Assembly (NCBI GenBank): GCA_024278835.1
Contig: JAJRSK010000033.1
Span: forward strand, 62,001-126,000
Source: Campylobacterales bacterium
GTDB lineage: Bacteria > Campylobacterota > Campylobacteria > Campylobacterales > QNZT01
DNA length: 64,000 nt
Reading direction: 5' to 3'
The notes under the pieces were generated by a model. The model saw only the letters and a program-made list of their open reading frames with translations. It had not been told where the DNA came from and did not search any database. The position numbers and the translations under genes were made by a program. Shown piece after piece: positions 6,632 to 63,300 of this stretch; positions within the stretch are counted from its first letter, which is position 1; every line of letters begins with the position of its first letter.

Positions 6632-6705
6632 TTTAGACTCCTATTTTTCTTCTTTTCAACAAAACATACTATCATGATAAAAAACAAATGCAAAAAGAGT
6701 CTATC

Positions 6706-7728
6706 ATGATAAGAACCCCCGCCACCTCCCCCGATGCACAAGCAGCCCTTGAGATTGTCACACACCTGCAAAGATACTTCGTTACCCAGCTCGATGCCCT
6801 CTCTCGTGAAGCTTTTGAAGCAGTGGAGTGGTTTCGTGATGAAGGCTTACATAGTGGTGGTGTACGCTATGAAGCGCGTGATGAAGCTATTTTTAACCGT
6901 GCCTCGGTCAATATCTCCCAAGTCCACTACAACGATGAACCTGACAAAAAACTCTCCTCAGCCACTGCCATCTCGACTATTATCCACCTCGCCAACCCTC
7001 ACGCCCCTTCGATGCATATGCATATCTCTTGGACACAGATGCGTGATGGCAAGGGCTACTGGAGAATCATGGCGGATTTAAATCCTGCTATCCCCAATGA
7101 TACCGATAAAGAGAGCTTTTTTCAGATGCTCAAAACAGCGATACCTACACACTATAAAGAGGGCATTACCCAAGGAGATAGGTACTTTTTTATTCCTGCC
7201 CTTGAGAGGCATCGAGGGGTGAGTCACTTTTATTTAGAAAACTTCCACACAGAGGATAAAAAGGCAGATGAAGCCCTCGCGCAAAAGTTCGGGGAAGCCG
7301 TGATAGATAGCTATATCATGATAGTCAAAAACGCCCTACAAACACACCCTACATATAACAATGATGAGAGACAAAAGCAGCTCGATTATCATACCCTGTA
7401 CTTTTTCCAAGTGTTGACTTTGGATCGTGGTACCACTTCGGGACTACTCATACACAACCAAAATGATATAGGTATTTTAGGCTCACTGCCTTCGCATATT
7501 GAGAGAGATTTATTAGAGTCTTGGAAAGTAAATATGCCTGAAATCCAACAGAAATTATTGACCCGATTACTTGATGCCTTGCCCAATATCTCTGTCGTAT
7601 CGGTAAACACAGAAGTCAAAAAAAGTCTAGCACAGGCAGTCAGAGAACACTACAAGCAACACCCAAAAGCACTCTCTTTACAAGCAAGTGGAAACACCAT
7701 CCCACCCACGGTTGATAACCACAGCTAG
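6706..7728 (+). CDS. hemF: Oxygen-dependent coproporphyrinogen III oxidase
   Basis: A coprogen oxidase that decarboxylates two propionates of coproporphyrinogen III to vinyl groups using O2, a late step of haem synthesis in the cytoplasm. Family signatures are visible: GGVRYEARDEAIFNRASVN near residues 50-68, the active-site stretch NPHAPSMHMHISW, and a C-terminal LDRGTTSGL. The length of about 340 residues is slightly above the usual 300. The ATG at 6706 lies inside a copy of TATCATGATA and has AAAAAGAG six bases upstream; an ATG at 6688 would add six residues but has no ribosome-binding site. Many anaerobic relatives rely on HemN, so an O2-dependent enzyme fits a microaerobic or aerobic life. 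It stands alone and converges with the DUF4272 gene. Confidence 0.93.
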   Translation: MIRTPATSPDAQAALEIVTHLQRYFVTQLDALSREAFEAVEWFRDEGLHSGGVRYEARDEAIFNRASVNISQVHYNDEPDKKLSSATAISTIIHLANPHAPSMHMHISWTQMRDGKGYWRIMADLNPAIPNDTDKESFFQMLKTAIPTHYKEGITQGDRYFFIPALERHRGVSHFYLENFHTEDKKADEALAQKFGEAVIDSYIMIVKNALQTHPTYNNDERQKQLDYHTLYFFQVLTLDRGTTSGLLIHNQNDIGILGSLPSHIERDLLESWKVNMPEIQQKLLTRLLDALPNISVVSVNTEVKKSLAQAVREHYKQHPKALSLQASGNTIPPTVDNHS

Positions 7729-8334
7729 CTATACAGCGATATCTACTTCAGAGTAAATCTCACAAGCACCAGTAAGCCAAAGAGCCGCTCGCATCCGCTC
7801 TCGTGAGATAGAGCTAGTAATACTAAACTCTTTCTCTTTTATCTTCTCTACATTGAGAGGATTTGCCGCAAACTCTTTTAAATGACAATGCTTAGTGTAG
7901 CAGGTATCCTTCATCGCTAGAAGTTCACTCTCATCTCGAAGCGTTGGTGCATCCACCAATGCTTTTGCACTCTCATGTAAAAAGTTGAGTGTATGTGTCA
8001 CACTTTGTGGCTCTGCCAAAGTATCATCAGGATGTAAATCATAACGCTTCATCGCCCAAGTCAGCACCGCCAAGCCTTCCACAGCCCAAGCAAGATTGAT
8101 TTGCGCTTGCGCATCCAATCCACCAAGTGGCGCGGTGAGTGCTACTAGTTCATGTTGTTCCATCTCTTCTCTCGCCCCAACCAAGTCAATCCACGGCAAC
8201 AGACTCTGTCGCAACTCCTCCACATCGGCAGGACTCTCCACTTCGATAAATCCACGACATACCAAGGCACCCAAGACCATTGCTCTTTTTGCAACTCTTG
8301 TCGCCGAAGGTGCTGTGACACTTTTTTCACTCAT
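7729..8334 (-). CDS. DUF4272-like protein
   Basis: A 201-residue soluble protein without signal peptide or membrane segment. The pattern of an N-terminal RVAKRAMVLGALVCRGF helix, a central LPWIDL segment and AWAVEGLAVLTWAM resembles the DUF4272 family, whose function is unknown. The stop codon adjoins the hemF stop (convergent genes with no room for a terminator). The start lies 11 bases after the transporter stop on the same strand, so it is probably the second gene of a two-gene unit. The family call is from pattern recognition. Confidence 0.6.
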   Translation of the reverse strand: MSEKSVTAPSATRVAKRAMVLGALVCRGFIEVESPADVEELRQSLLPWIDLVGAREEMEQHELVALTAPLGGLDAQAQINLAWAVEGLAVLTWAMKRYDLHPDDTLAEPQSVTHTLNFLHESAKALVDAPTLRDESELLAMKDTCYTKHCHLKEFAANPLNVEKIKEKEFSITSSISRERMRAALWLTGACEIYSEVDIAV

Positions 8335-8345
8335 ATTTTCCCTTT

Positions 8346-9683
8346 TTATAGATACAGCGCATTATACGCCAAAAATAGTACCGCCAATGGTGCTACAAAT
8401 CGAATAGAAAAGTACCACACTTTAAAGACAGTATTGCCCATATGCCCTAAAAGCACCGCTTCTACATCATCTCTCTTCATCGCATACCCCACAAATAAAG
8501 CGATGAGTATCCCACCAAGTGGCATCAAGAAAGAATCCACGGCAAATTCTAATACATCAAAAAGCGATTTTGTCCCAAAGGTCAAAGGTTCTTTAAAGCC
8601 ATCAGAGATAGAGAGTATGACCAATACACCTACAACAAAGTAGAGAAATGAAGAGCCAAAAACCGCTGATTTTTTCTGCCATCCCCATCGCCTCTCAAGA
8701 TACATCACGCTTGGCTCCACCAGCGAAATCGCCGAAGTAAGCCCAGCAAATGCCATCCCTAGAAAGAATATCAAAGCAATCACCGTCCCAATAGTCCCTA
8801 ACTTAGCAAAGATAACAGGCAGCGACATAAACACCAAGCCCGGCCCTTTAGCAGGTTCTCCACCAAACTGAAACAAAAAAGCAAAGATGACTATCCCCGC
8901 TAAAATCGCGATAAAAGTATCCAAAAAGGCTACCCAAAGCCCAGCAACAAAGATATTTGTATGTTTAGGAAGTGCCGCAGAATACGCCATGATAGCACCG
9001 ATACCGATAGAGAGTGTAAAAAACGAATGTCCCACCGCGCGAATAATTGCTTCGCCACTAAGTTTAGAAAAATCAGGCACAAACATAAAAGCCACAGACT
9101 TTGAAAAACTCTCAAACTGCATCGCATAGACCATCAATCCAAGCAGTATCATGATAAGCAATGGCACAAGGATGATATTAAAGCGTTCAATCCCACTTTT
9201 AATACCCCGCAAAAGCACCAATGCCACCAAAACAACAGAGATAAAATGCAACCCAATCTGTAGATATGGCGACTGTCCATACAGCACATCAAACGTAGCA
9301 GTCGCCTCTTCTAGCGTCGTGGGGAGTCCCGTCACACTCACATAAAGGTAGTAAAATATCCACCCAATCACCACCGAATAAAATGTCATGATAATCAAGC
9401 CTATACTAAAGAGAAAACCCGCCTTAGCCCAAGCCCACTTGGCACTTGGTGCTAAAGTTTCAAAGCTTGTTACTGCATCTTCTCCACCCTTTTTACCTAT
9501 GAGCATCTCCGCTATCAAAAGCGACACCCCAATAAATAAAATCGTCACCAAATAGACCATCACAAACGCACCCCCACCATACTCACCGGTGATATAAGGG
9601 AACTTCCAGATATTACCCAGACCTACAGCCGCCCCTGCTGCTGAGAGGATAAAACCAATACGCGAAAACTTTGCTGCTTGCAT
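8346..9683 (-). CDS. Sodium-dependent transporter of the NSS/SNF family
   Basis: A membrane protein of 445 residues with about 11-12 hydrophobic segments. TM1 carries the NSS signature GLGNIWKFPY followed by GGGAFVMVY, which in LeuT-type carriers forms the Na+ and substrate site. The family imports amino acids or related solutes with Na+. The substrate cannot be read from the sequence. ATG at 9683 is preferred over a TTG one codon upstream because AAGGATTTTG precedes it. Upstream lies a 120-bp inverted repeat (9701-9820) that may contain or disturb its promoter. One TATCATGATA (9147) encodes Ile-Met-Ile in a membrane helix. Confidence 0.92.
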   Translation of the reverse strand: MQAAKFSRIGFILSAAGAAVGLGNIWKFPYITGEYGGGAFVMVYLVTILFIGVSLLIAEMLIGKKGGEDAVTSFETLAPSAKWAWAKAGFLFSIGLIIMTFYSVVIGWIFYYLYVSVTGLPTTLEEATATFDVLYGQSPYLQIGLHFISVVLVALVLLRGIKSGIERFNIILVPLLIMILLGLMVYAMQFESFSKSVAFMFVPDFSKLSGEAIIRAVGHSFFTLSIGIGAIMAYSAALPKHTNIFVAGLWVAFLDTFIAILAGIVIFAFLFQFGGEPAKGPGLVFMSLPVIFAKLGTIGTVIALIFFLGMAFAGLTSAISLVEPSVMYLERRWGWQKKSAVFGSSFLYFVVGVLVILSISDGFKEPLTFGTKSLFDVLEFAVDSFLMPLGGILIALFVGYAMKRDDVEAVLLGHMGNTVFKVWYFSIRFVAPLAVLFLAYNALYL

Positions 9684-9700
9684 CAAAATCCTTTTTTATT

Positions 9701-10090: not shown

Positions 10091-10095
10091 ATATC

Positions 10096-10119: not shown

Positions 10120-10172
10120 TTCTATCATGATAAATGCGTTAAAATATCCCTAACATTAAAAGGTGCATCATC

Positions 10173-13028: not shown

Positions 13029-14667
13029 GTTTCAACTCCTTTTTGATGACTTCCGCTACACGGAAACTATTAGCATATATCGTCCATGTGTAGGGGACTG
13101 AACCCCCTGTTGGCATAAAACTCCCATCAGTGACAAAGAGATTTTTCACCTCATGTGCCCTGCACTCCTTGTCAAGTACTGATGTTTTAGGGTCATTACC
13201 AAAACGACAGCCTCCTGATTGTAAGTTTTGAGGTGGGTAGGGAGAGATGCCTTCTGAGATATCTTTTGCACCCATCGCTTCAAGGATTTTTCGTGTTTTT
13301 TTCGCGATTTTTTCCCCTACTTTGACATTTTCGGGATGTGCTCCTATGCGTATTTTAGCCACAGGAGAGCCAAACTTATCATGATAGTTCTCATCTACAC
13401 TTACAAAACAGTCATCATTGGGCAACCAATCATTAAATATCTCAAAAGTTAACATCTTTTTTTTATTGAATTTCTCGTATATCTTCGCTTGAAGTGTTTC
13501 ACCCCAGATAAGACCATTTCCTTGCCACTTTTGTTTGTTGGCTTTGACTATCGGATTAGCATGCTCAAAAAGTGCTTCTGAAATCCCCCCTTTTTTACCA
13601 TCCAAAAAGTACCAATCTTTGATCGTCCGATTGACAAAAAGCCCCTCTACCATCAATGACTTCAGTGGTATCACACTCTCATCAAATGTCCCACTCACCA
13701 CGCCCCCTCCTGAAAAGAGAAGATTTTTTCCCACCTCTCCACTGTTATTTGCCAAGCCATTTGGAAATGCTTTTGACTTAGAATTTAACAACAATCTCGC
13801 ACTCTCTACTGCCTGTGCTGCTAGGACAAAAATCTTGGCTTTTACGCGCTTCTCTTTGCCTTCTTCATCGATGTATGCCACTTCTGTGATGCGTCCCTCT
13901 TTATCATGATAGAGTTTTTTGACAAAGGCTTTTGTGCGTATCTCAAGATTTCCATTTTTTAAAGCAGGTTGCAATAAAGCAGCGCGTGCAGAGGATTTAC
14001 CCCCAGAACTACAGCCATAACTCCCACAATAATTCGAGTAATAACAGGGATTTCTCTCCCCCTTTGCCACAGGCAATATCGCCCGTGGCGTTTTCACTGC
14101 TACCACGCCTTCTTTTTTAGCTGCCTTATCGATGTACGAAGAGATAGGATGTTCTTGCGTAGGTGGATAGGGGAAGTTTTTCGTACTGCGTGGTTCTTGA
14201 TACTTAAAAGGCGTCACATCACCACTCACCCCCACGATTCGTTCTACCTTCTCATAAAAAGGCTCCATATCATGATAGCTTATAGGCCAATCTACGATAT
14301 TTGCCCCCGCTATCTCTCCAAATTCACTTTTGAGTCGAAAGTCTTTAGGGTGCAAACGGTGAAAAAATCCACTCATCAAGTTGGATGAACCACCCACAAT
14401 ATTGCCATTCCAAAAATCCCAGCCAGAGGTATACGTCGGTGTGACCACCCATTCCCCATCTTCTTTATCCTCTATCAGGTGATACTCATCTTTGAGCTTT
14501 GGGGTGATGATAGAACGCCGGCAAAAGGCTATCTCATCTTTAGAAAAATCCTCTTCATTGTAAAAATCTCCTTTTTCCAAGATAAGCACTTTAGCACCAG
14601 AACGACTTAACTCATACGCGATAGGTGCAGCGCCTGCCCCTGAACCGATGATACAGATATCAACCAT
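13012..14667 (-). CDS. GMC-family FAD oxidoreductase (large subunit)
   Basis: A flavoprotein of about 551 residues. The FAD-binding Rossmann motif IIGSGAGAAPIAYELSRSG begins at residue 5, NIVGGSSNLMSGF follows the first fold, and the C-terminal GMC motif includes CRFGNDPKTSVLD and the final NLFVTDGSFMP-TGGSVPYTWTIYANS. Relatives are membrane-anchored sugar, alcohol or choline dehydrogenases that act in the periplasm with a small subunit-3 partner. That partner is encoded directly upstream with an eight-base overlap. ATG at 14667 is chosen because it starts right before the nucleotide fold and has TTTGGAGC upstream. Four TATCATGATA copies fall in this pair of genes. The substrate is not predictable. 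Confidence 0.88.
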   Translation of the reverse strand: MVDICIIGSGAGAAPIAYELSRSGAKVLILEKGDFYNEEDFSKDEIAFCRRSIITPKLKDEYHLIEDKEDGEWVVTPTYTSGWDFWNGNIVGGSSNLMSGFFHRLHPKDFRLKSEFGEIAGANIVDWPISYHDMEPFYEKVERIVGVSGDVTPFKYQEPRSTKNFPYPPTQEHPISSYIDKAAKKEGVVAVKTPRAILPVAKGERNPCYYSNYCGSYGCSSGGKSSARAALLQPALKNGNLEIRTKAFVKKLYHDKEGRITEVAYIDEEGKEKRVKAKIFVLAAQAVESARLLLNSKSKAFPNGLANNSGEVGKNLLFSGGGVVSGTFDESVIPLKSLMVEGLFVNRTIKDWYFLDGKKGGISEALFEHANPIVKANKQKWQGNGLIWGETLQAKIYEKFNKKKMLTFEIFNDWLPNDDCFVSVDENYHDKFGSPVAKIRIGAHPENVKVGEKIAKKTRKILEAMGAKDISEGISPYPPQNLQSGGCRFGNDPKTSVLDKECRAHEVKNLFVTDGSFMPTGGSVPYTWTIYANSFRVAEVIKKELKLAKKS

Positions 14668-15130
14668 GTTTTGCTCCAAATCTAAACTTAGGACGCGGTA
14701 CGCCCGCATTGTGATGAAAACTTTTCCAACCTATTTCCTTTTTATTACCACCATATAGTGGATCACAAAAAAGTGCTTCTAATGTATAGTTTATCATAAT
14801 AGATATCCAGTTTTCTCCCAAATGACTCTCTCCAAAGGTCTGTAAAACCTTCTCTTTTTCATCATCTGTGAGTATCGTTTTATAGCCACTTTTGCGCAAC
14901 TCACTCGCCCCACGCAAAATAAAATCCAAATCATCTTTATCAAAGCTATCATGATAAGCAACCATCTTGAGATAACGCGTCGCTTCAAACTCTTTAGCAC
15001 TTGGATACTTCTTCGTTTTGGGAAATAGATGCACTTGTACACTCTCTATGAGTAACCAAGTATCCTCCTTTTTGGCACAAGCCACCGTAGTAAATACGAC
15101 AGGTAAAGTTAAAAACTCGCGTCTTTTCAT
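14660..15130 (-). CDS. Gluconate 2-dehydrogenase subunit 3-like protein with Tat/lipoprotein signal
   Basis: A 156-residue protein starting MKRREFLTLPVVFTTVACAKK: a twin-arginine motif (RREFL), a hydrophobic stretch and a lipobox-like VACA. This fits export folded through Tat and lipid anchoring. The mature part (IESVQVHLFP, then FLDPLYGGNKKEIGWK-like FCDPLYGGNKKEIGW) matches gluconate 2-dehydrogenase subunit 3 proteins, which accompany and export GMC-type dehydrogenases. Its 3' end overlaps the GMC gene. It is transcribed away from the GKCG-peptide genes, and the 126-base divergent gap carries an inverted-repeat operator candidate. Confidence 0.85.
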   Translation of the reverse strand: MKRREFLTLPVVFTTVACAKKEDTWLLIESVQVHLFPKTKKYPSAKEFEATRYLKMVAYHDSFDKDDLDFILRGASELRKSGYKTILTDDEKEKVLQTFGESHLGENWISIMINYTLEALFCDPLYGGNKKEIGWKSFHHNAGVPRPKFRFGAKHG

Positions 15131-15888: not shown

Positions 15889-16326
15889 ATGTTAAAACAA
15901 CTTTATAGCGAAGTCGTTAGGTTACTCTCAAACCTACAAAGTGTGGCACTTTTGTTAGCCAGACTAGCCGTAGCATATGGATTTTATGAGCCAGCGATGA
16001 TGAAATGGTCAGATATAGGTTCTGTGGCAGATTGGTTTGGCTCTATGGGTATACCCTTTCCCACACTCAACGCCTACATGGCAGCAACAACGGAGATAGT
16101 TGGTGTGGTACTGCTTACCCTTGGACTGTTTACAAGGATTATCTCACTCCCAATGATGGTTATCATGATAGTAGCAATTAAGACCGTGCATTTGGCACAT
16201 GGTTTTTCTGCCGGGGACAATGGCTTTGAAATTCCACTCTATTATATGCTATTTTTACTCATCTTTGTGGCTTTTGGCGCAGGAAAGTTTTCTTTGGATC
16301 AACTTCTTTTTAAAGATGAAAAGTAG
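15889..16326 (+). CDS. DoxX-family membrane protein (HvfD-like position)
   Basis: A 145-residue inner-membrane protein with four hydrophobic segments (about 18-34, 62-85, 88-105, 118-135). The first has LARLAVAYGFYEPAMMKWSD, and the centre has TEIVGVVLLTLGLFTRI, the usual DoxX pattern. DoxX relatives are quinone-linked or redox membrane partners. In HvfABCD-type clusters the DoxX member (HvfD) accompanies the GKCG precursor, so the context repeats that arrangement. The stop codon TAG is immediately followed by the ATG of the next gene. One TATCATGATA (16161) encodes Ile-Met-Ile in a membrane helix. Confidence 0.85.
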   Translation: MLKQLYSEVVRLLSNLQSVALLLARLAVAYGFYEPAMMKWSDIGSVADWFGSMGIPFPTLNAYMAATTEIVGVVLLTLGLFTRIISLPMMVIMIVAIKTVHLAHGFSAGDNGFEIPLYYMLFLLIFVAFGAGKFSLDQLLFKDEK

Positions 16327-18027
16327 ATGGAAGAGCTACTCCAGCATGGCGGTGCATTGATTCATAATGACTGGGGAGAGTTTTTTAAGGGGCTTTCCTT
16401 GATGCTTCTTTTTTTACTCTTTCTGTTTTTCATCTATGATAGATTTGTGCAGCGAAGCAATCAACTGCTTATCAATTACCCTCTTATAGGGCGAATGCGT
16501 TATCTTTTTTATATGTTACGAGCCCCTATGCGTCAATACTTTGGCGATGAGCAGTTTTATGATACGTATGAAAAGGTGGACTGGGTAAACAAAGCCTCCT
16601 ATGGTAAAAAGCTCTACTACTCCTTTTCCCTCACCAAACCTAGCAATCCGGATACGTCCAAGTTTGTCCATGCCAATAGTGTGCTCAACCTTGATGAAGT
16701 GCAAGAGAGCTTCCAAGTAACCTTTGGAGAGAGACAAAAGTGTCCCTTTACCAGTAAAAGCATTATCGGACGTTCTGCCATGAGTGATGGTTCTATCTCC
16801 CCAGAAGCGACACAATCCTTTTCTAAAGCAGCTTTCATGGGTCACTTTCCTATCAACACAGGAGAGGGGTCACTCACCACCAATTTTCTCACGACCCATG
16901 CCTGCTCGGTGGCTATGCAAGGCAAGTCTTATTTAGAAGTGCATCGAGGTACATTTTTTGCACGAGGTATTTACAAAATCACCAAATTCTTTTTTAACAA
17001 AGAGATTTCCTCCTCGCTCTATCGTACTTTAGTGATTAAAAAAGAGCAAGAGACGTATAACTTTGATGAGAGAATTCATGCCTTTTACAGGGTAGATTGG
17101 TCAAAGCCACTTTCAACATTCCCACAAGATATCTGTGACATCCCCGATATCATCTTTCAGATGGGTTCAGGGCTCTATGGTGTGAGAAATGACAAAGGAG
17201 AGTTTGACGCAGAACGTTATCAAAAAGTGATGCGTTTTTGTAAAATGACAGAGATAAAGATAGCCCAAGGAGCCAAACAGACAGGGGGAAAACTCTTGGC
17301 AAAGAAAGTGACAGAGGCGATTGCTTACTACCGTGGGATACCAGTTAACAAAGACCTCATCTCCCCAAATCGTTTTCCTTATGCCAGTACACTCACAGAA
17401 TTATTTGATTTCGTGGGAAAATTACAAAGCCTTTCAGACAAACCAGTCGGCATCAAAATCGTCCTCTCTACCAAAAAGAATTTTGATGCTTATGCCGATG
17501 CACTTTTACAACACATTCAGACACATCAACCTTATCCTGATTTTCTCACCATAGATGGTGGAGATGGTGGGTCTGGCGCAGCACCCATGGAGATGATGGG
17601 ACGCATAGGTCTTGGCATCCATGCGTCCTTGGATATCGTCATAAGTGCCTTAGAAAACCGTGGTATCAGAAAAGATATAAAAATCATCGCCTCTGAAAAA
17701 GTCCTCACACCAGACGATGTGATAGAACTCTTTGCATACGGAGCAGACTTTATCAATATCGCTAGAGGGTTTATGATATCCGCTGGTTGTATCCGCGCAC
17801 GTGAATGTTCAGGAGCCAACGGCAAAGATTGTCCCGTAGGCATCGCCACGATGAATGAGATGAAACGTTCTAAGTTTCTCATAGAGCAAAAATCTCACAA
17901 CATCACACACTATCATGATAGCCTTCTTCAGGGAGTAAAAGCCCTCATGGCTGTGATGGGGAAAAAGCATTTAAGGGAGATTTCTAAACACGACCTTATG
18001 ATAAATAGTAAAATTTTATTGACTTAA
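16327..18027 (+). CDS. FMN-binding glutamate synthase-like protein with N-terminal membrane helix
   Basis: A 566-residue protein. Residues 18-40 form one transmembrane helix, after which the chain carries a GltS/GltB-type TIM barrel: GEGSLTTNF near 177, QMGSG and KIAQGAKQTGGKL near 275-325, LTIDGGDGGSGAAPMEMM near 413-430, and CIRARECSGANGKDCPVGIAT near 491-511, which are the FMN-binding and Fe-S-like loops of glutamate synthase relatives. It lacks the glutamine amidotransferase domain, so it cannot make glutamate from glutamine by itself. It is directly coupled to the DoxX gene and could be the oxidoreductase that acts with the GKCG peptides. That role is inference. Confidence 0.85.
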   Translation: MEELLQHGGALIHNDWGEFFKGLSLMLLFLLFLFFIYDRFVQRSNQLLINYPLIGRMRYLFYMLRAPMRQYFGDEQFYDTYEKVDWVNKASYGKKLYYSFSLTKPSNPDTSKFVHANSVLNLDEVQESFQVTFGERQKCPFTSKSIIGRSAMSDGSISPEATQSFSKAAFMGHFPINTGEGSLTTNFLTTHACSVAMQGKSYLEVHRGTFFARGIYKITKFFFNKEISSSLYRTLVIKKEQETYNFDERIHAFYRVDWSKPLSTFPQDICDIPDIIFQMGSGLYGVRNDKGEFDAERYQKVMRFCKMTEIKIAQGAKQTGGKLLAKKVTEAIAYYRGIPVNKDLISPNRFPYASTLTELFDFVGKLQSLSDKPVGIKIVLSTKKNFDAYADALLQHIQTHQPYPDFLTIDGGDGGSGAAPMEMMGRIGLGIHASLDIVISALENRGIRKDIKIIASEKVLTPDDVIELFAYGADFINIARGFMISAGCIRARECSGANGKDCPVGIATMNEMKRSKFLIEQKSHNITHYHDSLLQGVKALMAVMGKKHLREISKHDLMINSKILLT

Positions 18028-18292: not shown

Positions 18293-19576
18293 TCACTTTC
18301 CTAGATAGCGTTGTCTAGGTCTTGCTATCTTTGAACTCTCATCTTTTTTAAACTCTACCCATTGATTTATCCAGCCTACTGTTCTACCTATCACAAAGAT
18401 TACCGTAAACATAGATTTTGGTATACCCAAGGCATAAAGAATAGTCCCTGAATAAAAGTCTATATTTGGATAAAGATTTCTCTCTATAAAGTAAGGGTCA
18501 CTCAATGCAATTTTCTCTATCTCTCTTGCTATCATGATAAGTTCAGAATCCAACTCCAACGCATCACTTAACTTATCTTGTAATTTTTTCAAAACTCTTG
18601 CACGTGGATCAAAGTTTTTATAGACACGATGACCAAATCCCATCAATCGAAAATCATCTTCAGGGTCTTTGGCTCTTTTGATAAATGCTGGTACATTTTT
18701 CACATCCCCAATCATCTCCAGTTGTGCGATGACAGATTCATTTGCCCCGCCATGCGCCCTACCCCATAGTGCAGAGATACCTGCTGATATCGCCACATAA
18801 GGATGGGCTCCTGTAGAGGCTACACCTCGCACCGTGGTAGTAGAAGCATTTTGTTCATGGTCTGCATGCAGGGTAAATATCGTATCGAGTGCTTCTATCT
18901 CCACCGAGGATATCTTCTCTTCTCCATCCACACCTATATGCATCTTTCCCCCAGGATACGCACGCATCATATAGAGAAAATTTTCTGTAAAAGAACGCTC
19001 GATATCAGGGCATATCAAAGGAATCCCAAGTGAGTGTCTATATGAAAATGCTGCCAAAGTTGGCATCTTGGCAATAATGCGTCGCTTCATCTCCATATAA
19101 TCTTCTTCACTCTTTAACTCAAGATGTTCAAAATAAAACGACGAAAGCGCAGAGACTGCCGAAGCCAATATCGCCATCGGATGTGCAGAATTGGGAAAGC
19201 TCTCTATGAGATTTTTTAACCCAGAGTGGATAAAAGAGCGGTGTCTAATCTCTAAGTCATAATTGATAGACTCCTCTTGGGTGGGAAATCTACCCGTGCT
19301 TAGTAAAAAGCAGACATCCAGATAAGAGTGATTAGTTGCCAACTCTTCTATCTCAATGCCATAATACCGAAGTTCCCCCTTCCCTCCATCTATAAAAGTC
19401 ATCTCTGAATCACAAGCTGCCGTCGATGTAAATCCAGGGTCATAGGTAAACATCCCAGTATCTTTGAAAAAACTCCTCACATCCACAACACTAGGCCCTC
19501 TTGTAGCCTCTAAAATACTATATTCATACGATTTTCCTGTTCGATTGTCTATCATCGTCATACTATTTTTTTTCAT
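18293..19576 (-). CDS. gltA: Citrate synthase
   Basis: A type I citrate synthase of 427 residues that condenses oxaloacetate with acetyl-CoA. Catalytic segments are HADHEQNASTTTVR, LWGRAHGGANESV (first active-site His) and MGFGHRVYKNFDPRA (second His and following Asp). The ATG at 19576 follows one base after the TAA of the extended mqo frame and uses a GGAGGTG site inside its last codons. The two are therefore one operon that delivers and uses oxaloacetate. A convergent terminator lies just past the stop. Confidence 0.96.
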   Translation of the reverse strand: MKKNSMTMIDNRTGKSYEYSILEATRGPSVVDVRSFFKDTGMFTYDPGFTSTAACDSEMTFIDGGKGELRYYGIEIEELATNHSYLDVCFLLSTGRFPTQEESINYDLEIRHRSFIHSGLKNLIESFPNSAHPMAILASAVSALSSFYFEHLELKSEEDYMEMKRRIIAKMPTLAAFSYRHSLGIPLICPDIERSFTENFLYMMRAYPGGKMHIGVDGEEKISSVEIEALDTIFTLHADHEQNASTTTVRGVASTGAHPYVAISAGISALWGRAHGGANESVIAQLEMIGDVKNVPAFIKRAKDPEDDFRLMGFGHRVYKNFDPRARVLKKLQDKLSDALELDSELIMIAREIEKIALSDPYFIERNLYPNIDFYSGTILYALGIPKSMFTVIFVIGRTVGWINQWVEFKKDESSKIARPRQRYLGK

Positions 19577-20900: not shown

Positions 20901-20973
20901 GACAACTCCTTTTAGTTATCACATCTTAGTAGAAAAAAGTAGGGCTTATGTGTAGTGTTATCATGATAGCGTG

Positions 20974-21861: not shown

Positions 21862-22796
21862 TATTTTTCCTTTATTTCAAATAGTGTTAAAATTGTTTTT
21901 TCAAATATATTGTTGTTATTATCACTAATCATGAGATAGAGATTATCCTTGATATGGGTTAACCCTTCAAAATTATCGATATTCCAACCATCCTTGCTAC
22001 TCATCCATGACAACACTTCACTCTGACAAATACCCACATTTGCCCCTTCTAAATCTACCTTTAAAAGTGTCGTCTCAAACGTAAATGAGTGCAGAATAAA
22101 CTTTCGTAAAAGTAGCAACAAACTTCCATCAGGCATCATCTCCATCTCCGTAATCGCCACATTACTATCTGCTATTTTCACCTTGCAAAGTTTTCCCTTC
22201 GATGTGTAGATATCATGATAGCCTCTTTTTTCTCCCTTTAGTGAATACTCTGCGGTTGTGATATACCCATACTTTTCATTATAGGTCAAGGCTTCTAGGG
22301 CTTTATTTTTGGAGCGATAGTTTTTGATGTCATTTAAGGGTATGGGTAAAGGGAGCATTTTTTGAGGTCTGAAGTTTTTATCATAGCGTAGTATACGTGG
22401 TTTTCTCTCAAAGGAGACTAGCAGAGACTCCCCTACCAATGCCAAACCTTCAGAATCTTTATACGCACCAAATAACTTTTTTCCATTGAGCCCTCTAAGA
22501 GCCTTTGATGAAAGTGCTTTAAGGGATTTTATCTTTTTATTTTCTATCATGATAGAGAGTGTAAAGAGCCTCCCTTTATCACTAAGTGCATAAAGTAAAT
22601 CTTTTGTTTTATCATAAGCGATATCAGATATCTCACAAAACTTTAATCCATCAACATGATTACTAGCCAAGACCTTTGAGTCTAGTATCTTAATCCCCAT
22701 GTAGTCGCCATTTTTGACAAAATCTGGTTCGATTTTATGATTTTCAAACCCCCATAATTGCACAAAAAAAGCTATCATGATAAGGATGATTTTCAT
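21861..22796 (-). CDS. Esterase-like activity of phytase family protein
   Basis: A 311-residue exported protein with a signal peptide (MKIILIMIAFFVQLWGF). The mature chain shows short blade-like repeats: EISDIAYDKTKDLLYALSDKGRLF, DSEGLALVGESLLVSFE, ALEALTYNEKYGYITTAEY and NFEGLTHIKDNLYLMISDNN. This is the beta-propeller pattern of the esterase-like phytase domain (PF13449). The substrate is unknown. Its ATG overlaps the stop of the ThiF-family gene, and its stop touches the barrel gene. The barrel partner suggests a role at the cell surface or in uptake. Confidence 0.75.
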   Translation of the reverse strand: MKIILIMIAFFVQLWGFENHKIEPDFVKNGDYMGIKILDSKVLASNHVDGLKFCEISDIAYDKTKDLLYALSDKGRLFTLSIMIENKKIKSLKALSSKALRGLNGKKLFGAYKDSEGLALVGESLLVSFERKPRILRYDKNFRPQKMLPLPIPLNDIKNYRSKNKALEALTYNEKYGYITTAEYSLKGEKRGYHDIYTSKGKLCKVKIADSNVAITEMEMMPDGSLLLLLRKFILHSFTFETTLLKVDLEGANVGICQSEVLSWMSSKDGWNIDNFEGLTHIKDNLYLMISDNNNNIFEKTILTLFEIKEK

Positions 22797-23425
22797 GCCC
22801 TAAGCTTCCTTATCGCCAAAGAACACAAAGCCAAGCCAAAAGCACCCGTCACCCCCATAAAAGAACCCATCTCTGTACAATGGGGCACTTCTGGAGAAAA
22901 GACCACATCAAACTTTCCTTTAAATCCACTCTTTTTGAGTTCATAACGAAACTTCTTTGCCAAGGCATCCCCATGGGTTTTCCAGATAGAAGCAATCTCT
23001 ATCTTTGTGGGATCTAAGCGTTTTGCTCCACCCATGGAGGCTATCAACTTACCTCCCGTATGATGTGCAAGTGCCACCTTTGCTGGCATATCATCGATGG
23101 CATCAATCACCAAATCATACGAAGAAAAATCAAAATCTTCACACCACTGGGGTGTTACGCGTATCTTCTCTATCATGATAGAGGGATATTCTCTCTTAAA
23201 ATATTCGACCTTCACCTCTCCCAAGGCATGTGAACCTAGTTGGCGATTTTGGTTACTCTCTTCAAAAGTGTCAAAATCTACGATAGTGATATCTCTCACG
23301 CCAGAGCGATAGAGACAATCCAGACAAAATCCCCCTACACCACCAACACCCAAAAGCAACACTTTGGCACCTTGAAGCTTCTCAAAATCCTCACCAAAGA
23401 GCATTCGAGAACGTGAATACCTCAT
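22793..23425 (-). CDS. tcdA: ThiF/TcdA-family ATP-dependent tRNA t6A dehydratase
   Basis: An E1-like adenylating enzyme of about 210 residues. It has the nucleotide loop LLLGVGGVGGFCLDCLYRSG, the DFDTFEESNQNRQ motif with its RQ pair, and the IDAIDDMPAKVAL segment. The length and the SMGGAKRLDPTKI stretch match TcdA/YgdL, which cyclises t6A37 on tRNA to ct6A, rather than ThiF or MoeB. ATG at 23425 overlaps the surE TGA (ATGA); a GTG two codons earlier is possible. One TATCATGATA (23171) encodes Ile-Met-Ile. Confidence 0.85.
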   Translation of the reverse strand: MRYSRSRMLFGEDFEKLQGAKVLLLGVGGVGGFCLDCLYRSGVRDITIVDFDTFEESNQNRQLGSHALGEVKVEYFKREYPSIMIEKIRVTPQWCEDFDFSSYDLVIDAIDDMPAKVALAHHTGGKLIASMGGAKRLDPTKIEIASIWKTHGDALAKKFRYELKKSGFKGKFDVVFSPEVPHCTEMGSFMGVTGAFGLALCSLAIRKLRA

Positions 23426-33222: not shown

Positions 33223-33234
33223 TAAAGGTCTATC

Positions 33235-47689: not shown

Positions 47690-48634
47690 TTAAAATATCT
47701 CATTTAGTGCCATATCTTCAGCACGTTTGAGTAATTTTATCGCACCATTTTCTATCATGATATCTGCGAGTTCTTTGCCCATCTGTCTGAAAGCCTGTTT
47801 GTCACAAAACTTCTTCTCTTTGATAATCTCATTGCCATCAGGCATACCCACACAACATCTAGCGACGATATTCTCACCATCAAACTTTGCATTGACACCT
47901 ATAGGCACTTGACAGCCACCTTCTAAAATCGTCACAAAGTCTCTCTCAACAGTTGTTTCAATAAAAGCATCTTCATCATTAAGTACAGAAATAATCTCTA
48001 AAATCTCAGGATCATCAATCGCTTCGATACCAAGTGCCGCTTGCCCCATAGCAGGAATCATTTGTGTCACTTCTATGGGTGTTGCAAACTTCACTTCCTT
48101 TTGAAGCCCAAGTCTATTTAATCCAGCGGTCGCTAAGATAATAGCATCATACTCACCCTCTTTAAGTTTTCTGATTCTTGTATTGACGTTACCACGAAGA
48201 TTTTTAATCTCTAAATCAGGGCGCAAAGCCAAAATTTGCATACGGCGTCTTAAACTCGTCGTACCGACAACTGCACCTTCTGGAAGTGCATCGATATCTT
48301 CATACTTTTCACTCAACAGACAATCACGTACATCTTCACGTTCTGTGATGGCAGCAAGTACCAGACCTTCAGGAAACTCCATAGGCACATCTTTGAGACT
48401 ATGTACCGCGATATGTGCCCTGCCTTCAAGCATAGCATCTTCAAGTTCTTTTGTAAAAAGTCCCTTACCACCTATCTTTGCCAAAGGGGTATCTAGAATC
48501 TTATCCCCTTTGGTTGACATCTCATTTAGCTCCACCTCCATCTCAGGAAAAGCTTTTTCAAGTGCTGCTTTGATATGTTCAGATTGCCATAAGGCTAACT
48601 TACTTTTTCTTGTTGCTATGATAAGTTTTTTCAC
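47690..48634 (-). CDS. hemC: Porphobilinogen deaminase (hydroxymethylbilane synthase)
   Basis: A 314-residue haem enzyme that polymerises four porphobilinogens. IATRKSKLALWQSEHIK opens the protein, GGKGLFTKELEDAML and HSLKDVPMEFPEGLVLAAI carry the dipyrromethane-binding and catalytic Asp-adjacent motifs, and TSLRRRMQIL, NLRGNVNTRIRKL and GGCQVPIGV (cofactor Cys in the last) follow. It overlaps the DsbC-like gene by four bases and closes the minus-strand block at a strong terminator. Confidence 0.96.
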   Translation of the reverse strand: MKKLIIATRKSKLALWQSEHIKAALEKAFPEMEVELNEMSTKGDKILDTPLAKIGGKGLFTKELEDAMLEGRAHIAVHSLKDVPMEFPEGLVLAAITEREDVRDCLLSEKYEDIDALPEGAVVGTTSLRRRMQILALRPDLEIKNLRGNVNTRIRKLKEGEYDAIILATAGLNRLGLQKEVKFATPIEVTQMIPAMGQAALGIEAIDDPEILEIISVLNDEDAFIETTVERDFVTILEGGCQVPIGVNAKFDGENIVARCCVGMPDGNEIIKEKKFCDKQAFRQMGKELADIMIENGAIKLLKRAEDMALNEIF

Positions 48635-49864: not shown

Positions 49865-51556
49865 CTACAGTCCTTTTATCTTTTCAAAAATTTCATCTTT
49901 GTGAATGGTCTCTTTTTCTAGTGTTGCACGATGACCTAGTTGTACTTCACCCTCTTTAAGCCCTTTACCCACGATGATAGCATAAGGAAATCCTAACAAC
50001 TCAAAATCACCCATCTTAAATCCAAAACGCTCATTTCTATCATCCAACAAAACAGAGATGTTTTCTTCTTGCATCTGTTCATAAAGAGACGTAGCAAAAC
50101 TCACTTGTTCTTCATCTTTGATACTGGAAATCACGATATCAAATTTAAAAGGTGTCGTAGCATCCGTCCACAAACAGCCTTTTTCATCGTGGTGCTGTTC
50201 TATCATGACAGCGACCAAACGACTCACACCGATACCATAAGTACCCATGACAAGTGGTTTACTTTTTCCATTTCTATCCAAGAAAGTGGCCCCTAGTGCT
50301 TCAGAATATGCCGTTCCTAGTTGAAAGATATGCCCAACTTCAATCCCTTTGGTAATTTCAAGTGCGCTTCCACACGCCACACATCTATCTCCAGCATTGA
50401 CAGAAGTGATATCATGATAGTCAAATTCTTCATTTTCAAAGCTAACCCCTATATCATGATAGTCTTTTTTATTGGCACCACATATCAAAGAACTTGCCTT
50501 TTTTAAAGAGTCATCAAAATAACAATCTACACTTTGATTATGTGGCCCTATAAAGCCAACGACCATACCTGCCGCTTCTAACTCTTCACTACTGACATCT
50601 TCGAGTTCCAAGGCACCACAAGTATTCTGCGCCTTTACTTCTTGCAGTTCATCACTTCCTCGTAAAAAGAAAAGAACGATTTTCTCCTCTTCTTCATAAA
50701 TCGCTTTTTTAGCGACTGCTTTAACAAAGTAATACGCATCGATTTTAAAAAAGTCACTTAAGGCTTCTATCGTTGTGATATCAGGTGTGTGAAATGTACC
50801 TGCCTGCATCTCTACATCACCATCAGGTACAGAAACTGCCTGACGCTTTGCTGCTTCGATATTGGCAGCATAATCACAACCAGAACAGACGATGATATCA
50901 TCTTCCCCATTATCCGCTAACACCATAAGCTCCCGTGAACCACTACCACCTATAGCACCACTATCAGCTTCCACAACACGAAAGTCAAGTCCAAGTCGTT
51001 CTAGTATACGGCTATACGTCTGCTCCATCAAGGCATATTCACGTTTTAAATCTTCCTCATCTTCATGAAAACTATAACCATCTTTCATCAAAAACTCTCG
51101 TCCACGTAGTAGTCCATAACGTGGTCTTGCTTCATCTCGAAATTTTGTATTGATTTGATAAAGATTAAGAGGCAATTGTTTGTAGCTTTTGAGACGATTT
51201 CGTACTAAATCAACCATAGCCTCTTCATGCGTTGGCCCCAAAACAAATTCATTATTTTTTCTATCTTTAAAACGCAATAACTCTTTTCCAAATTTCGCAT
51301 AACGCCCACTCTCTTTCCAAAGTTCAGTAGGAGTAACAAATCCAAGTTGCACCTCTTGGCATCCAGCCTTATCCAATTCTTCCTTGACAATAGTACGTAT
51401 CTTATCAAGCACAATTTTACCTAGTGGTAAAAAGTTATAAATCCCAGCACCTATCTGTGAAACAAAGCCACCCCGAACAAGATAGATATGGCTAGGTAAT
51501 AGCGCATCTTTTGGTGCTTCTTTAGCAGTTGGAGCAAAAAGGTTTGTAAATCTCAC
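49865..51556 (-). CDS. proS: Prolyl-tRNA synthetase (bacterial type with insertion domain)
   Basis: A 563-residue class II synthetase. [25 protein letters not shown] is the typical N-terminus, with motif 2 [30 protein letters not shown]. The central INS editing domain (about 225-380) is present, then [23 protein letters not shown] and the anticodon-binding C-terminal domain. It overlaps hemA by four bases and abuts fxsA, in the haem/aminoacyl-tRNA gene order known from Helicobacter (hemC, proS, hemA, ispB). Confidence 0.96.
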
Positions 51557-54522: not shown

Positions 54523-55461
54523 TTATGATGAAAAAAATTGTGAAATAACTTCTCTTAAGTGTGCATAATCACTAATTCTATTGATTTTATCTCGAAACTC
54601 TGAAGCAGCTGGAAAACCCTTGGAATAAGTATGTAAATGTTTTCTAAATATGGAGACACCCTTGTCCACATAAAATTCAAACATCAAATCATAATGTCGT
54701 AAAACAATCTCTCTAATTTTATCTTTTTCTATAGTTTTTAAATTATGCTTTAGTTGATAAAATATCCATGGATTACCAACAGCACCACGTCCTATCATGA
54801 TACCATCACACCCTGTATACTCTCTCACATGTTGGGCTATTTCCAGCGATGTGATATCACCATTGGCAATGACGGGGATACTCACCGCTTCTTTTGCCTC
54901 TTTGATAGGCGTGTAATCAATCGGTGCTTTATATTTGCCTGCCCTAGTTCTGCCATGAAAAGTGATAAAGTCTGCACCTGCACTTTCAACAGATTTAGCG
55001 ATATCCACCGCTATTTTTTCATTAAATCCAAGGCGTGATTTCACCGAAGTATACTCTTTATTGGAATATTTTTTGATAGTTTCAATGATACGAGACATCT
55101 GTGGTAAATCAGTTAAAAGAGAGGAACCTGAGTTTTGAGAAACAATCTTGGGCACAGGACAACCACAGTTTAAATCAATCCCGTCTATCCCATCAAAATC
55201 ATTTAAAATGAGTACGGCTTCTTTAATGACATCGATATCACTACCAGCTATTTGTACAATATAAGGAGATTCCAAAGGAGATTTTTCAATCATTTTGAAT
55301 GTTCTTGTGGAGTGATACTTTAAAGCATTAGAACTTATCATCTCCGAAATTGTCACATCCGCACCAAACTCTTTAGCCACAGAGCGAAAAGGAAGATCCG
55401 TGTAGCCCGCCAAAGGGGCTAACATCACGATATCTTTTTTAGAAAAGTCTATTGTAGCCAC
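54523..55461 (-). CDS. dusB: tRNA-dihydrouridine synthase (DusB family)
   Basis: A 312-residue flavin enzyme that reduces uridines in tRNA. MLAPLAGYTDLPFRSVAKEFGAD opens the TIM barrel, DGIDLNCGCPVPKIVSQNSGSSLL has the catalytic Cys, and GRTRAGKYKAPIDYTPIK, PVIANGDITSLEIA and GCDGIMIGRGAVGNPWIF are the FMN-binding strands. A TATCATGATA encodes IMI within the last motif. It lies directly before the membrane protein gene at 55468. Confidence 0.93.
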   Translation of the reverse strand: MATIDFSKKDIVMLAPLAGYTDLPFRSVAKEFGADVTISEMISSNALKYHSTRTFKMIEKSPLESPYIVQIAGSDIDVIKEAVLILNDFDGIDGIDLNCGCPVPKIVSQNSGSSLLTDLPQMSRIIETIKKYSNKEYTSVKSRLGFNEKIAVDIAKSVESAGADFITFHGRTRAGKYKAPIDYTPIKEAKEAVSIPVIANGDITSLEIAQHVREYTGCDGIMIGRGAVGNPWIFYQLKHNLKTIEKDKIREIVLRHYDLMFEFYVDKGVSIFRKHLHTYSKGFPAASEFRDKINRISDYAHLREVISQFFSS

Positions 55462-55467: not shown

Positions 55468-56472
55468 CTATATAAAAAGCTCTGTATCAAAGTTGCGACC
55501 TTGATCTTTTAAGAAAAGTATATATCTAAATTTTTGATACTCATCTTCTGAGGCATTAACTAAAAATTCTCTTGCATCATCTATCATTTGTAATTCAAAT
55601 AGTACATAAAGATACCCTTCTCCAGCTACATTTGGAAACTCATGTGCCATTTTTTCTGCAAGGTTCAATAATCTATCAGGTACAACTTTGGCTCTTAATT
55701 TTTTCATAAGAGTAATAAAATCATCACTAGAATAATCTAACTCTTTAACATAAGCAATCATCTCACCATCACTAAAGTCTAAAGGTTCTTCTGTTGCGCC
55801 AATTCTATCTATCATGATATCAAATACTTCTCTTGATGGTTCTACCTCATACTTAATGAGTTCTGACATTGGTGCATAGCTTGCAAATGTCAAAAAGGCT
55901 TGTTTACAAGTTGCTTTATCATCACACCTTTTAAGTATTGTAGCTGCATACGTTTTGTCTTCAGCCATTTGATTGAGTGCATTTCTTAACATATTTGGAT
56001 TACTAGGTTTTAATGCGTACTTGGCCAAGTCCACAACTTCACCGTTATCTAAACGCTCCTTTGTCTCAAGGATATCTTGTACATCATCATTATAAATACG
56101 ATACTTCTTCGCTTTATAAGGATCAGAATTTAAAAGTGGCAAGATTGCACCTGGTAACTTAAAAAACTCACTCTTATAATCAGCTTTTATCTCTTTACCT
56201 AGAAGTGCTTCTTTTGCAGCTTGTGTAAACTTTTCGCCATCTTTTTTGACACGTCTAAATTTTATCGCATTTGCTGTGCCATAAAACATCAAATGTGCAA
56301 TAGTCGCTAAAAACAGCAAGATAACTGGTAAAATAATCCACACTGCGATTGGCAGTGAGATAGGAACATCAACGACATTTAAAGTATATTTACCACCTTC
56401 AAAACTATAAACATACAGACCCAAAAGTATAATAAAAAATAGCCCAAAACCAATATACTTTTTTAATCCCAT
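55468..56472 (-). CDS. Two-helix membrane protein with helical repeat-like domain, unknown function
   Basis: A 334-residue protein with two N-terminal membrane helices (IGFGLFFIILLGLYVYSF and AVWIILPVILLFLATIAHLMFYG) and a soluble helical remainder with repeated short helices (YAPMSELIKYEVEPSREVFDIMIDRIG, LNLAEKMAHEFPNVAGEGYLYVLFELQMIDDAREF), TPR-like. It is probably inner-membrane bound with a cytoplasmic helical domain. It is tightly packed between dusB and dksA (2-6 base gaps), a sign of shared transcription. No family is recognised; it may be specific to the phylum. Confidence 0.7.
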   Translation of the reverse strand: MGLKKYIGFGLFFIILLGLYVYSFEGGKYTLNVVDVPISLPIAVWIILPVILLFLATIAHLMFYGTANAIKFRRVKKDGEKFTQAAKEALLGKEIKADYKSEFFKLPGAILPLLNSDPYKAKKYRIYNDDVQDILETKERLDNGEVVDLAKYALKPSNPNMLRNALNQMAEDKTYAATILKRCDDKATCKQAFLTFASYAPMSELIKYEVEPSREVFDIMIDRIGATEEPLDFSDGEMIAYVKELDYSSDDFITLMKKLRAKVVPDRLLNLAEKMAHEFPNVAGEGYLYVLFELQMIDDAREFLVNASEDEYQKFRYILFLKDQGRNFDTELFI

Positions 56473-57320: not shown

Positions 57321-57338
57321 ATGCTATCATGATAGCAT
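57321..57338. repeat. Palindrome copy extended to 18 bp at the accD stop
   Basis: ATGCTATCATGATAGCAT is perfectly self-complementary and contains TATCATGATA (57325-57334). The accD stop codon (57329-57327) lies inside it. As an RNA it would give at most a seven-pair stem. Confidence 0.7.
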
Positions 57339-60373: not shown

Positions 60374-60374
60374 C

Positions 60375-63300
60375 TTAGTCTCCCTCCTCAGGATTTAACG
60401 GCGCATTGGCTAAGTCTTTAGGTCGTATAATCCAAAAGTCTCGTAATGTGTGTCTAAAGTTATCCAAAATATATTGTGCTTTATCGCTTGATGTTTCATC
60501 TACATAATTTTTCAGTAGCTTTTTGATGAAGTGTCGCTCTTCATCACTCTCATCTGTATCTATTCTTTTTGCTGAAACCAACTCTTGATTAAGGTTATCG
60601 ATAAATTCATGTTCTTTATCATAGACAAAAGCAACACCACCCGTCATACCAGCACCAAAGTTCACACCAGTTTTACCTAAGATGACCACTATACCACCTG
60701 TCATATACTCACAAGGGTGATCCCCTGTTCCTTCAACGATAGCTGTCGTTCCTGAGTTTCTCACACAAAAACGCTCCCCTACAGAGCCCGCGATATAAAG
60801 CTTACCACCCGTTGCACCATAAAGACAGGTATTACCACCACAAGAGAATTTATCACTTTGTGTTTTTGGCGTGATGATGATTTTACCACCATTCATACCC
60901 TTGCCGATATAATCATTGCCAGCACCATTGAGGTAGATAGAGATACCGCTACTTAAAAATGCTCCTAGTGATTGCCCAGCAACACCATGGAGTTTAAAGG
61001 TGATACTATCATCTGCTAAACCTTTATTGCCATAATATTTTGCAATCTCTCCAGAGATAAGTGTTCCAAAACTTCTATGGATATTTTGAATCTCTTTTTT
61101 AAGGACTATCTTTTCATTTGGATTAGAGATGACAGGATAAACTTCTTTTAAAATCCCTTTTTCAAACTCATTTTTATCAAATGGTTCGTTAGATTCTCTT
61201 TGACAAGTATCTACACCATCTAGTCGCATAAGAACAGATGAAAAATCAAACTTTTTAGCCATAGGATCATCGATGACTTTTAGTAAGTCACTTCGACCAA
61301 CAATCTCCTCCATGCTCTTATAACCAAGCGTTGCCAACATCTCACGTACATCTTCTGCTAGAAGGGTAAAGTAATTTACCACTCTATCGACCGTCCCCAC
61401 AAAATGCTCACGTAAAACTTCATCTTGCGTAGCAACACCTACCGTACATTTATTGAGATGACAGATTCTCAGCATCCTACAACCAACAAGTGTTAAAGCA
61501 CCCGTACCAAAGGCATAACTCTCAGCCCCAAGCATCGCTGCTTTGATAACATCAAGCCCTGTTTTTAAACCACCATCAGTTTGAAGATGCACCATCTCTC
61601 TGAGTCCATTGACTTTAAGTGCATTGTGTGCCTCTGTCAATCCAAGCTCCCAAGGATTACCTGCATACTTGATAGAGGTGAGTGGCGCAGCACCCGTTCC
61701 ACCATCACCACCTGAGATAATGATTTTATCAGCATAAGCTTTTGCCACGCCCGCAGCAATCGTTCCTACACCCGCAGTAGACACAAGCTTCACCGTCACA
61801 GTTGCATCAGGATTTATCTGCTTCATATCAAAGATAAGTTGTGCCAAATCTTCAATAGAGTAGATATCATGATGAGGCGGAGGTGAAATCAATGTCACAC
61901 CCGGCGTCGTATAACGAAGTGAAGCGATTAAAGGTGTGACTTTATGCCCAGGAAGTTGTCCACCCTCACCTGGTTTTGCCCCTTGTGCTACCTTTATCTG
62001 AATCTCTTCCGCACTTCTTAGATACTCAGGCGTAACACCAAAGCGTCCAGAGGCAATCTGTTTGATTTTTGAACGATAAGAACTCTTTAGGCGTGAAGGG
62101 GCTTCACCACCCTCACCACAGTTTGACTGTCCACCGATACGATTCATCGCTTCACCTAGTGCTTCGTGTGCTTCAGGCGAGATGGAACCCAAACTCATTG
62201 CCGCTGTGGCAAAACGCTTGAAGATACTCTCTATCGGTTCTACATCCTCTATCATGATAGGTTTTCTATCTGATGAAAGTTCAAAGAAATCACGAATCAT
62301 CTTTTTATCACGATTGTTGACCAAGTCTTTAAAGGTGTTATAATCAGTTTTTTCATTGGAAATTGCCGCGTCATGAATAGCATTTATCACCTTAGGTGAA
62401 TAATCATGATACTCAAATCCCTCAAGATGTTTATGAAAACCACCCACTTCTAAGGGAAAAAGTTTTTTCGTTCGATCCACCTCCAAAGCATTGTCATAAT
62501 CTCTATCAAGACGTGCTTCAATATCTTCATAACCAAGCCCTGCTATATAGACATGTGAATCTCTAAAACAGTCATCCATGATCTCTCTAGAGAGTCCAAT
62601 CACATCAAAAAGTGACGAGTTTCGATAAGAAGCAATCGTGGCAATACCCATCTTCGACATGATTTTTAAGAGTCCTGCATTTAAGGAAGCATGTACATTT
62701 TTAAACTTCTGTTTTTGTTCATAGCTTGAGATATTATTTTTCTTACTTACTTCTAGGACTGTTGCGTACAAAAGGTAAGGATAGATAGCATTGGCACCAT
62801 AGGCAATCATCGTGGCACACGAATGAGAATCTATCGCTTCTGCTGTCATAGCTATCGTGGAAGTCAAGTGTCTGAGTCCTGCATCTAAAAGCGTTTGATT
62901 GAGGCGACCAACGACCATGGTCATTGGTATACTTTTCATGTTTTCTTTATCGCACCTGTCATCTAAAATGATGATTCTTACACCGTCATCTCGTACCGCT
63001 TTAATCACTCTATCACTCAAAGCATCCAAAGACTTTTTTAAATCTTTTTCAAAAAGTGTAGAAAAAAACTCACTCTTATAGTGTGCATTATATCGTGGCT
63101 GTTCAGGGTCACCAAAGGCACGTAGCACTTGTAGTTTCTCTTCCATCAAAATCGGGCTTATCGCCTTTAAACGGATAGCATGTTCTGGATCTTCTTCAAG
63201 GATATTTTTCACTTCACCAAAACCAGTGTTGAGACTCATCACAACCCTTTCGCGGATTGGATCAATCGGAGGATTGGTCACTTGTGCAAACTTTTGTTTA

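Follow-up and report, generated by a model that had tools for sequence, protein, structure and literature searches.

An exact palindromic word iterated through Campylobacterales chromosomes, a candidate label of self DNA

The 64,000-nucleotide stretch of Campylobacterales DNA analysed here (hereafter the window) is part of contig 45 of a genome of 2,507,854 bases in 77 contigs, referred to as G000, and is crowded with copies of one palindrome, TATCATGATA. The question raised by this locus is what multiplies such a word and keeps it exact. A sequence-only reading of the window had likened it to DNA-uptake words and to the highly iterated palindrome HIP1 of cyanobacteria, with an uptake signal, a methylation or repair target, a nucleoid-protein site and a replication or segregation mark as options. 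The word is genome-wide and lineage-specific, a self-DNA word kept exact in resident DNA on the chromosomes of two congeneric species, and it suggests that own DNA is marked in a manner not described before, perhaps with a role in uptake from kin.

Iteration of the word and its imprint on proteins

TATCATGATA is a perfect 10-bp palindrome of 20% G+C. Between positions 6670 and 62259 of the window it has 37 exact copies (Table 1), the number reported by the sequence-only reading, against a mean of 0.16 and a maximum of 2 in 100 dinucleotide shuffles, and against a second-order Markov expectation of 0.33. One-mismatch forms number 17, and those with an intact TCATGA core come to 11, where the sequence-only reading counted 10. 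The over-representation is peculiar to this word, since the runner-up 10-bp palindrome in the window has 5 copies and, among the most over-represented palindromes listed for 401 kb of G000, none but this one has more than 17. This 401-kb sample, which holds 233 copies of TATCATGATA, was used for the analyses of spacing, flanks, reading frames and tripeptides. The excess likewise extends far beyond the window, with 1,549 copies in the whole genome against 7 of the reversed control, that is, about one per 1.6 kb or about 620 per Mb; the count at the level of chance that would have refuted the sequence-only reading is not what the genome shows. That the word is a real iterated word of the HIP or uptake type appears close to certain.

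On the left, 58% of the 233 copies are flanked by C and 24% by T, the right side mirrors this, and no conservation is found further out; the full word is therefore the 12-bp YTATCATGATAR. The copies are spread in a Poisson manner, with a variance/mean of 0.91 in 10-kb bins and a random spacing (coefficient of variation 0.94). No replichore or origin-to-terminus trend in word density was found, samples from either side of the skew change being similar. A replichore mark was rejected on the grounds of this absence of bias and of the Poisson spread, and the broader option of a replication or segregation mark, listed by the sequence-only reading, is disfavoured by the same two features together with the presence of more than 1,000 sites.

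With regard to genes, whose positions were taken from crude open reading frame (ORF) calling, 174 of the 233 copies (75%) lie within them, where 214 were expected, and 59 lie outside genes or at their edges, where 19 were expected, which amounts to a threefold intergenic enrichment. The in-gene copies use two frames only, YHD+ and +IMI, the third being a stop. In the sample, the tripeptide Ile-Met-Ile (IMI) occurs 113 times against 20-28 expected (a 4-6x excess), and the word encodes 108 of these occurrences, against 5 predicted from codon usage; Tyr-His-Asp (YHD) occurs 76 times against 6-16 expected (a 5-13x excess). The same imprint is found in a Sulfurospirillum genome, G082, where LHV is present 62 times (11-19 expected), 47 of them encoded by that genome's own word, TTACATGTAA. 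The word dictates protein sequence, overriding amino-acid choice, and the scars that it leaves on the proteome are too large for weak selection acting site by site. A drive at the DNA level is thus strong enough to impose runs of Ile-Met-Ile and of Tyr-His-Asp on hundreds of proteins.

Table 1. Exact copies of TATCATGATA in the window; gene context from crude ORF calls
Copy	Position	Strand	Remark
1	6670..6679	.	exact match; non-coding gap
2	6702..6711	.	exact match
3	7314..7323	.	exact match
4	9147..9156	.	exact match
5	10123..10132	.	exact match; non-coding gap
6	13377..13386	.	exact match
7	13902..13911	.	exact match
8	14268..14277	.	exact match
9	14947..14956	.	exact match
10	16161..16170	.	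exact match
11	17911..17920	.	exact match
12	18530..18539	.	exact match
13	20959..20968	.	exact match; non-coding gap
14	22211..22220	.	exact match
15	22545..22554	.	exact match
16	22773..22782	.	exact match
17	23171..23180	.	exact match
18	24759..24768	.	exact match
19	30268..30277	.	exact match
20	30583..30592	.	exact match
21	31235..31244	.	exact match
22	31581..31590	.	exact match
23	33231..33240	.	exact match; gene boundary
24	35487..35496	.	exact match
25	35754..35763	.	exact match
26	36639..36648	.	exact match
27	40810..40819	.	exact match
28	41340..41349	.	exact match
29	46303..46312	.	exact match
30	47166..47175	.	exact match
31	47753..47762	.	exact match
32	50410..50419	.	exact match
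33	50452..50461	.	exact match
34	54793..54802	.	exact match
35	55810..55819	.	exact match
36	57325..57334	.	exact match; gene boundary
37	62250..62259	.	exact match

Dialects, conservation and decay in related genomes

Counted in 99 relatives, TATCATGATA reaches the level of G000 in G001 alone (1,009 copies), the only other species of the same genus in the comparison; G056 has 166 copies and all others 0-88. G001 (JANTGR01) was deposited under the name 'Sulfurospirillum sp. bin10080', yet the taxonomy places both it and the window outside the family of Sulfurospirillum diekertiae. The latter species is represented by G040, whose second contig is 100% identical to plasmid NZ_CP059996.1, and its family is therefore taken as Sulfurospirillaceae. 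Sulfurospirillum carries a highly iterated palindrome of its own, TTACATGTAA, with the longer form TTTACATGTAAA (in G040, G070, G082 and the other genomes of family f20, for example at loci L108-L116). Three members of the genus of G040 have 1,220, 1,309 and 1,099 copies, and the counts range from 6 to 1,496 across the 44 genomes of the family.

Other words take this place elsewhere. In another genus of the window's family, G007 has 1,188 copies of TAGTACTA genome-wide and 24 in 38 kb against 0.6 expected (L069, L127), the word being near background in its congener G003; in G056, the core ATCATGAT was seen 685 times in control counts. Furthermore, YTACATGTAR is enriched 5-fold in 34 loci of other Campylobacterota that bear a methyltransferase of the D12 family, with no enrichment in other phyla. 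Aligned, the dialects read YTAT-CATG-ATAR, YTA-CATG-TAR and YTA-GTAC-TAR, and the common frame YTA-core-TAR suggests that a single recognition system, variable in its core, may lie behind them. No earlier description of these words was found in the open-access literature, the subscription literature lying outside the search, and no usable methylome or competence papers on Sulfurospirillum were found there.

G008 and G016, which belong to the window's family and bear D12, have an excess of TTCATGAA (5 and 4 copies per 12 kb at L140 and L141, 0.2 expected) that may represent an additional CATG dialect. Also tentative as a dialect is TAAATTTA in G063, with 39 copies in 40 kb against 6 expected (L073, L125); the core of this word matches RAATTY, the uptake mark of Campylobacter jejuni. 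As a dialect of G028, AGTTATAACT was rejected, with 9 copies in the first 20 kb (L072) and 1 in the next 160 kb; the flanks of this cluster are partly shared, and it looks like a local repeat.

Conservation among related genomes, a point raised by the sequence-only reading, is borne out between the sister species G000 and G001. In 65 kb aligned at 75% identity, exact conservation was seen for 12 of the 23 copies in G000 and for 12 of the 24 in G001, the rate for control 10-mers being 9%. In small numbers, the differences are single transitions mixed with full gains or losses, and two copy pairs are shifted by 8 and 17 bp. Perfect copies also prevail within genomes: the G000 sample holds 233 of them and 133 single-mismatch forms, 82.5 of which are expected by chance (an excess of about 50), G082 holds 106 and 18, with 9.4 expected (an excess of about 9), and the G040 sample holds 21 and 0. 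Such a preponderance of perfect over one-off copies is a shared oddity of the uptake signal sequences (USS) of Pasteurellaceae and the DNA uptake sequences (DUS) of Neisseriaceae, unlike regulator sites (PMC1626085). In G094, of the same genus as G082, perfect copies number 2 in 237 kb and 49 genome-wide, mismatched forms are in excess at positions 2-5, and some excess of LHV remains (18 vs 9-10), which gives the picture of a decayed system.

The chromosomal spread is uniform and mobile DNA is copy-poor. Two Sulfurospirillum plasmids hold 33 copies of TTACATGTAA in 240 kb, against about 105 expected at chromosomal density, and on one of them, pSulSP, most copies lie within two copies of an organohalide-respiration/cobamide cluster. 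A 20-kb stretch of G082 with 1 copy holds two IS21-like elements, as judged from IstAB-like ORFs. Plasmid pSulSP (L279-L280) carries its reductive-dehalogenase and norcobamide region in two copies, at about 54-99 kb and 100-145 kb, which stand in direct order and are located between copies of IS21.

A solitary D12 methyltransferase

Among the four DNA-methyltransferase families searched (D12, EcoRI-type, N6_N4 and C5), D12 alone is shared by G000, G001, G040, G070, G082 and G056; the other three were rejected as the shared writer, each being missing from at least one high-motif genome. The shared enzyme has 323-336 amino acids, with MNYIGSK... and a DPPY motif, and its locus is fixed within each genus. 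No nuclease gene is obvious in the neighbouring ORFs, which were inspected by eye rather than by family search, and no relatives of the enzyme were found in the PDB.

Around D12 relatives in Capnocytophaga, Riemerella, Nicoletella and Lentimicrobium, CATG is nearly absent (observed vs expected, 0 vs 46-75 at L220, 4 vs 31-40 at L190, 5 vs 57-74 at L162 and 2 vs 34-38 at L167), a pattern that CATG restriction systems would be expected to produce. The annotation 'ulcer associated adenine specific DNA methyltransferase' is attached to some phage relatives, and we take it to be the name of Helicobacter pylori hpyIM. HpyIM methylates CATG (PMC4450513). Site avoidance and annotation thus tie the D12 proteins of G000 and Sulfurospirillum to the HpyIM/NlaIII type, with a putative specificity for CATG. 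Both well-measured CATG dialects have this tetranucleotide at their centre and are found in genomes that carry the solitary D12. In the Sulfurospirillum genus, the clade allele of D12 is present in 15 genomes, all with at least 869 copies of the word and with synteny in the 14 loci inspected; the nine other genomes have 49-934 copies (Mann-Whitney p = 5e-5, not phylogeny-corrected).

The D12 of Sulfurospirillum (L228-L241) differs by up to 38% of its amino acids, the neighbouring gene mostly by just 5-20%, and such divergence at a fixed locus is unusually fast evolution or allele replacement. Plasmid pSDCE1 carries a second, diverged D12 gene (L277:1692-2732), itself containing four TACATGTA words, and in G070 a 1053-aa ORF that is Cas9-like by sequence lies close to the D12 gene (L134:2469-5630).

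Candidate drivers and comparison with known systems

The copies are exact, indifferent to function, protein-altering and scarce in newcomers, which argues for molecular drive and not for selection at each site. Biased uptake with recombination is a known drive with such a signature and with dialects, and a palindromic mark is at work in C. jejuni, which takes up only DNA methylated by CtsM at the palindrome RAATTY (PMC10046745). On these grounds a palindromic label of uptake or of self, spread by molecular drive, is tentatively ranked first, the uptake step being presumed; uptake or self-recognition as the driver as such is held with slightly less reserve. A protein would read the whole palindrome, probably as a dimer, and DNA bearing the word would be favoured, most likely at the uptake step of natural transformation. 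Drive would then build up perfect copies and replace imperfect ones, as for Haemophilus USS and Neisseria DUS. In the CATG-cored dialects the label may be, or may have been, the CATG-methylated form, written by the solitary HpyIM/NlaIII-type D12 by analogy with C. jejuni; that methylation is part of the recognised form is conceivable, if more doubtful than the label itself. More speculative still is a Campylobacterales family of palindromic, possibly CATG-methylated uptake words of the form YTA-core-TAR, whose core changes between genera and whose recognition protein, perhaps together with the solitary D12, would define the partners of DNA exchange.

Several observations weigh against such a label. 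ComEC, the one competence gene searched, is present in all motif genomes tested (G000, G001, G040, G070, G082, G056 and G007) but occurs as well in almost every relative and in G094; being nearly universal, it was rejected as a discriminator, and no receptor or competence gene following the dialects was found. The described uptake words, USS and DUS, are non-palindromic, whereas TATCATGATA is a perfect palindrome. As for the methyltransferase, the association of D12 with copy number carries no phylogeny correction, and many relatives with D12 show near-background counts of TATCATGATA and TACATGTA. D12 was undetectable in G118 (99% complete, 934 copies, core still sharp) and in G129 (567 copies), and the GTAC-dialect genome G007 was found to hold no D12, C5 or EcoRI-type methyltransferase. 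The carriers that have no strong word and the exceptions G118 and G129 leave D12 associated with the word, neither sufficient nor shown to be needed.

Ranked second, and unlikely, is a functionless by-product of the kind proposed by Elhai for GCGATCGC in cyanobacteria (PMC4390886), whereby an orphan CATG methyltransferase and a bias of methyl-directed mismatch repair would create and preserve palindromes around CATG. The palindrome is indeed centred on the putative methyltransferase target, the CATG-cored dialect genomes carry a solitary CATG-type enzyme, and the change of dialect resembles the alternate HIPs (PMC4390886). However, such a ratchet should deplete one-off words, and positions 2-5 in G082 hold 10 against 8.3 expected (small numbers); a ratchet acting on every one-off word was rejected, as these are not depleted at inner positions. 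Furthermore, G118 has a high and sharp motif without D12, the count of CATG itself (1,496) lies close to the 1,383 of a zero-order expectation, and such palindromes are absent from D12-bearing loci of other phyla. A chromosome-wide site for a nucleoid, segregation or repair protein, selected site by site, comes third and seems less likely again. A long, sharp palindrome is typical of a dimeric DNA-binding protein, and the word is genome-wide, mainly in resident DNA and enriched between genes, but its spacing is Poisson without origin, terminus or replichore trend, single-mismatch forms are nearly absent, unlike in protein operator sites (PMC1626085), and it would appear implausible that some 1,500 sites should each be under selection strong enough to change amino acids.

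The word might also be the form protected against a resident or former CATG-type restriction-modification system or another defence nuclease, an improbable explanation that ranks fourth. The D12 family elsewhere is apparently part of CATG restriction systems, given the avoidance of CATG, and CCGG in Helicobacter is a known over-represented restriction-modification site (PMC4687349). Notwithstanding, G000 shows no avoidance of CATG outside the word, and the ORF lists inspected show no obvious nuclease gene beside D12. At 10-12 bp the word would be too long a target for a type II system. Spread of a small mobile repeat, akin to miniature inverted-repeat transposable elements or repetitive extragenic palindromes, would account for the high copy number but can be set aside almost entirely: it is contradicted by the flank profile, in which conservation stops one base out on each side, and by the 75% of copies inside genes in two reading frames. 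After this weighing, the uptake signal and the methylation-linked HIP-like word, both among the options of the sequence-only reading, are the favoured ones, and its likening of the word to both classes, its assignment to Campylobacterota and its claim of novelty are all upheld. To these the analysis adds several dialects, a 12-bp consensus, the rewriting of proteins and a CATG-type methyltransferase accompanying the CATG-cored dialects.

Iterated words have so far been known mainly from Pasteurellaceae and Neisseriaceae, where they serve uptake, and from cyanobacteria, where the function of HIP1 is unsettled. The word described here resembles USS and DUS in copy number (about 1 per 1-2 kb genome-wide), in the excess of perfect over single-mismatch copies (PMC1626085), in clade-specific dialects, such as the Hin- and Apl-type USS, and in its residence in chromosomal DNA. 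It differs in being palindromic, and so not orientation-specific, in its sequence and phylum, and in a possible link to a CATG methyltransferase. With HIP1 it shares a genome-wide over-represented palindrome, for which other palindromes substitute in some relatives (PMC4390886); HIP1 has an orphan methyltransferase for its inner core, and here a solitary CATG-linked D12 is present, with the exceptions of G118 and G129. The present word is AT-rich where HIP is GC-rich, and less dense than the 1,000-2,000 per Mb of HIP (PMC4390886). Its one-off forms are scarce where those of HIP1 are many, its core (CATG or GTAC) is non-homologous, and its hosts are Campylobacterota instead of cyanobacteria. 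C. jejuni, of the same order, requires a palindromic methylated word for uptake (PMC10046745), yet RAATTY is short and degenerate, whereas the word here is 10-12 bp and massively enriched, and a different methyltransferase is suggested. The D12 proteins fall in the family tied to CATG, as do HpyIM and M.NlaIII, and differ in being solitary, fixed in locus per genus and, in Sulfurospirillum, faster to diverge than the neighbouring gene. A palindrome with an apparent methyltransferase link, as in HIP1, the sharpness and dialects of uptake words, and an order in which a methylated palindrome governs uptake therefore offer a bridge between these classes that is testable in culturable bacteria such as Sulfurospirillum. 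In practical terms, adding the local word to donor DNA may help genetic tools for these environmental bacteria. If true, a palindromic YTA-core-TAR uptake family would count as the first uptake code made of iterated palindromes and would link HIP-type palindromes to DNA exchange.

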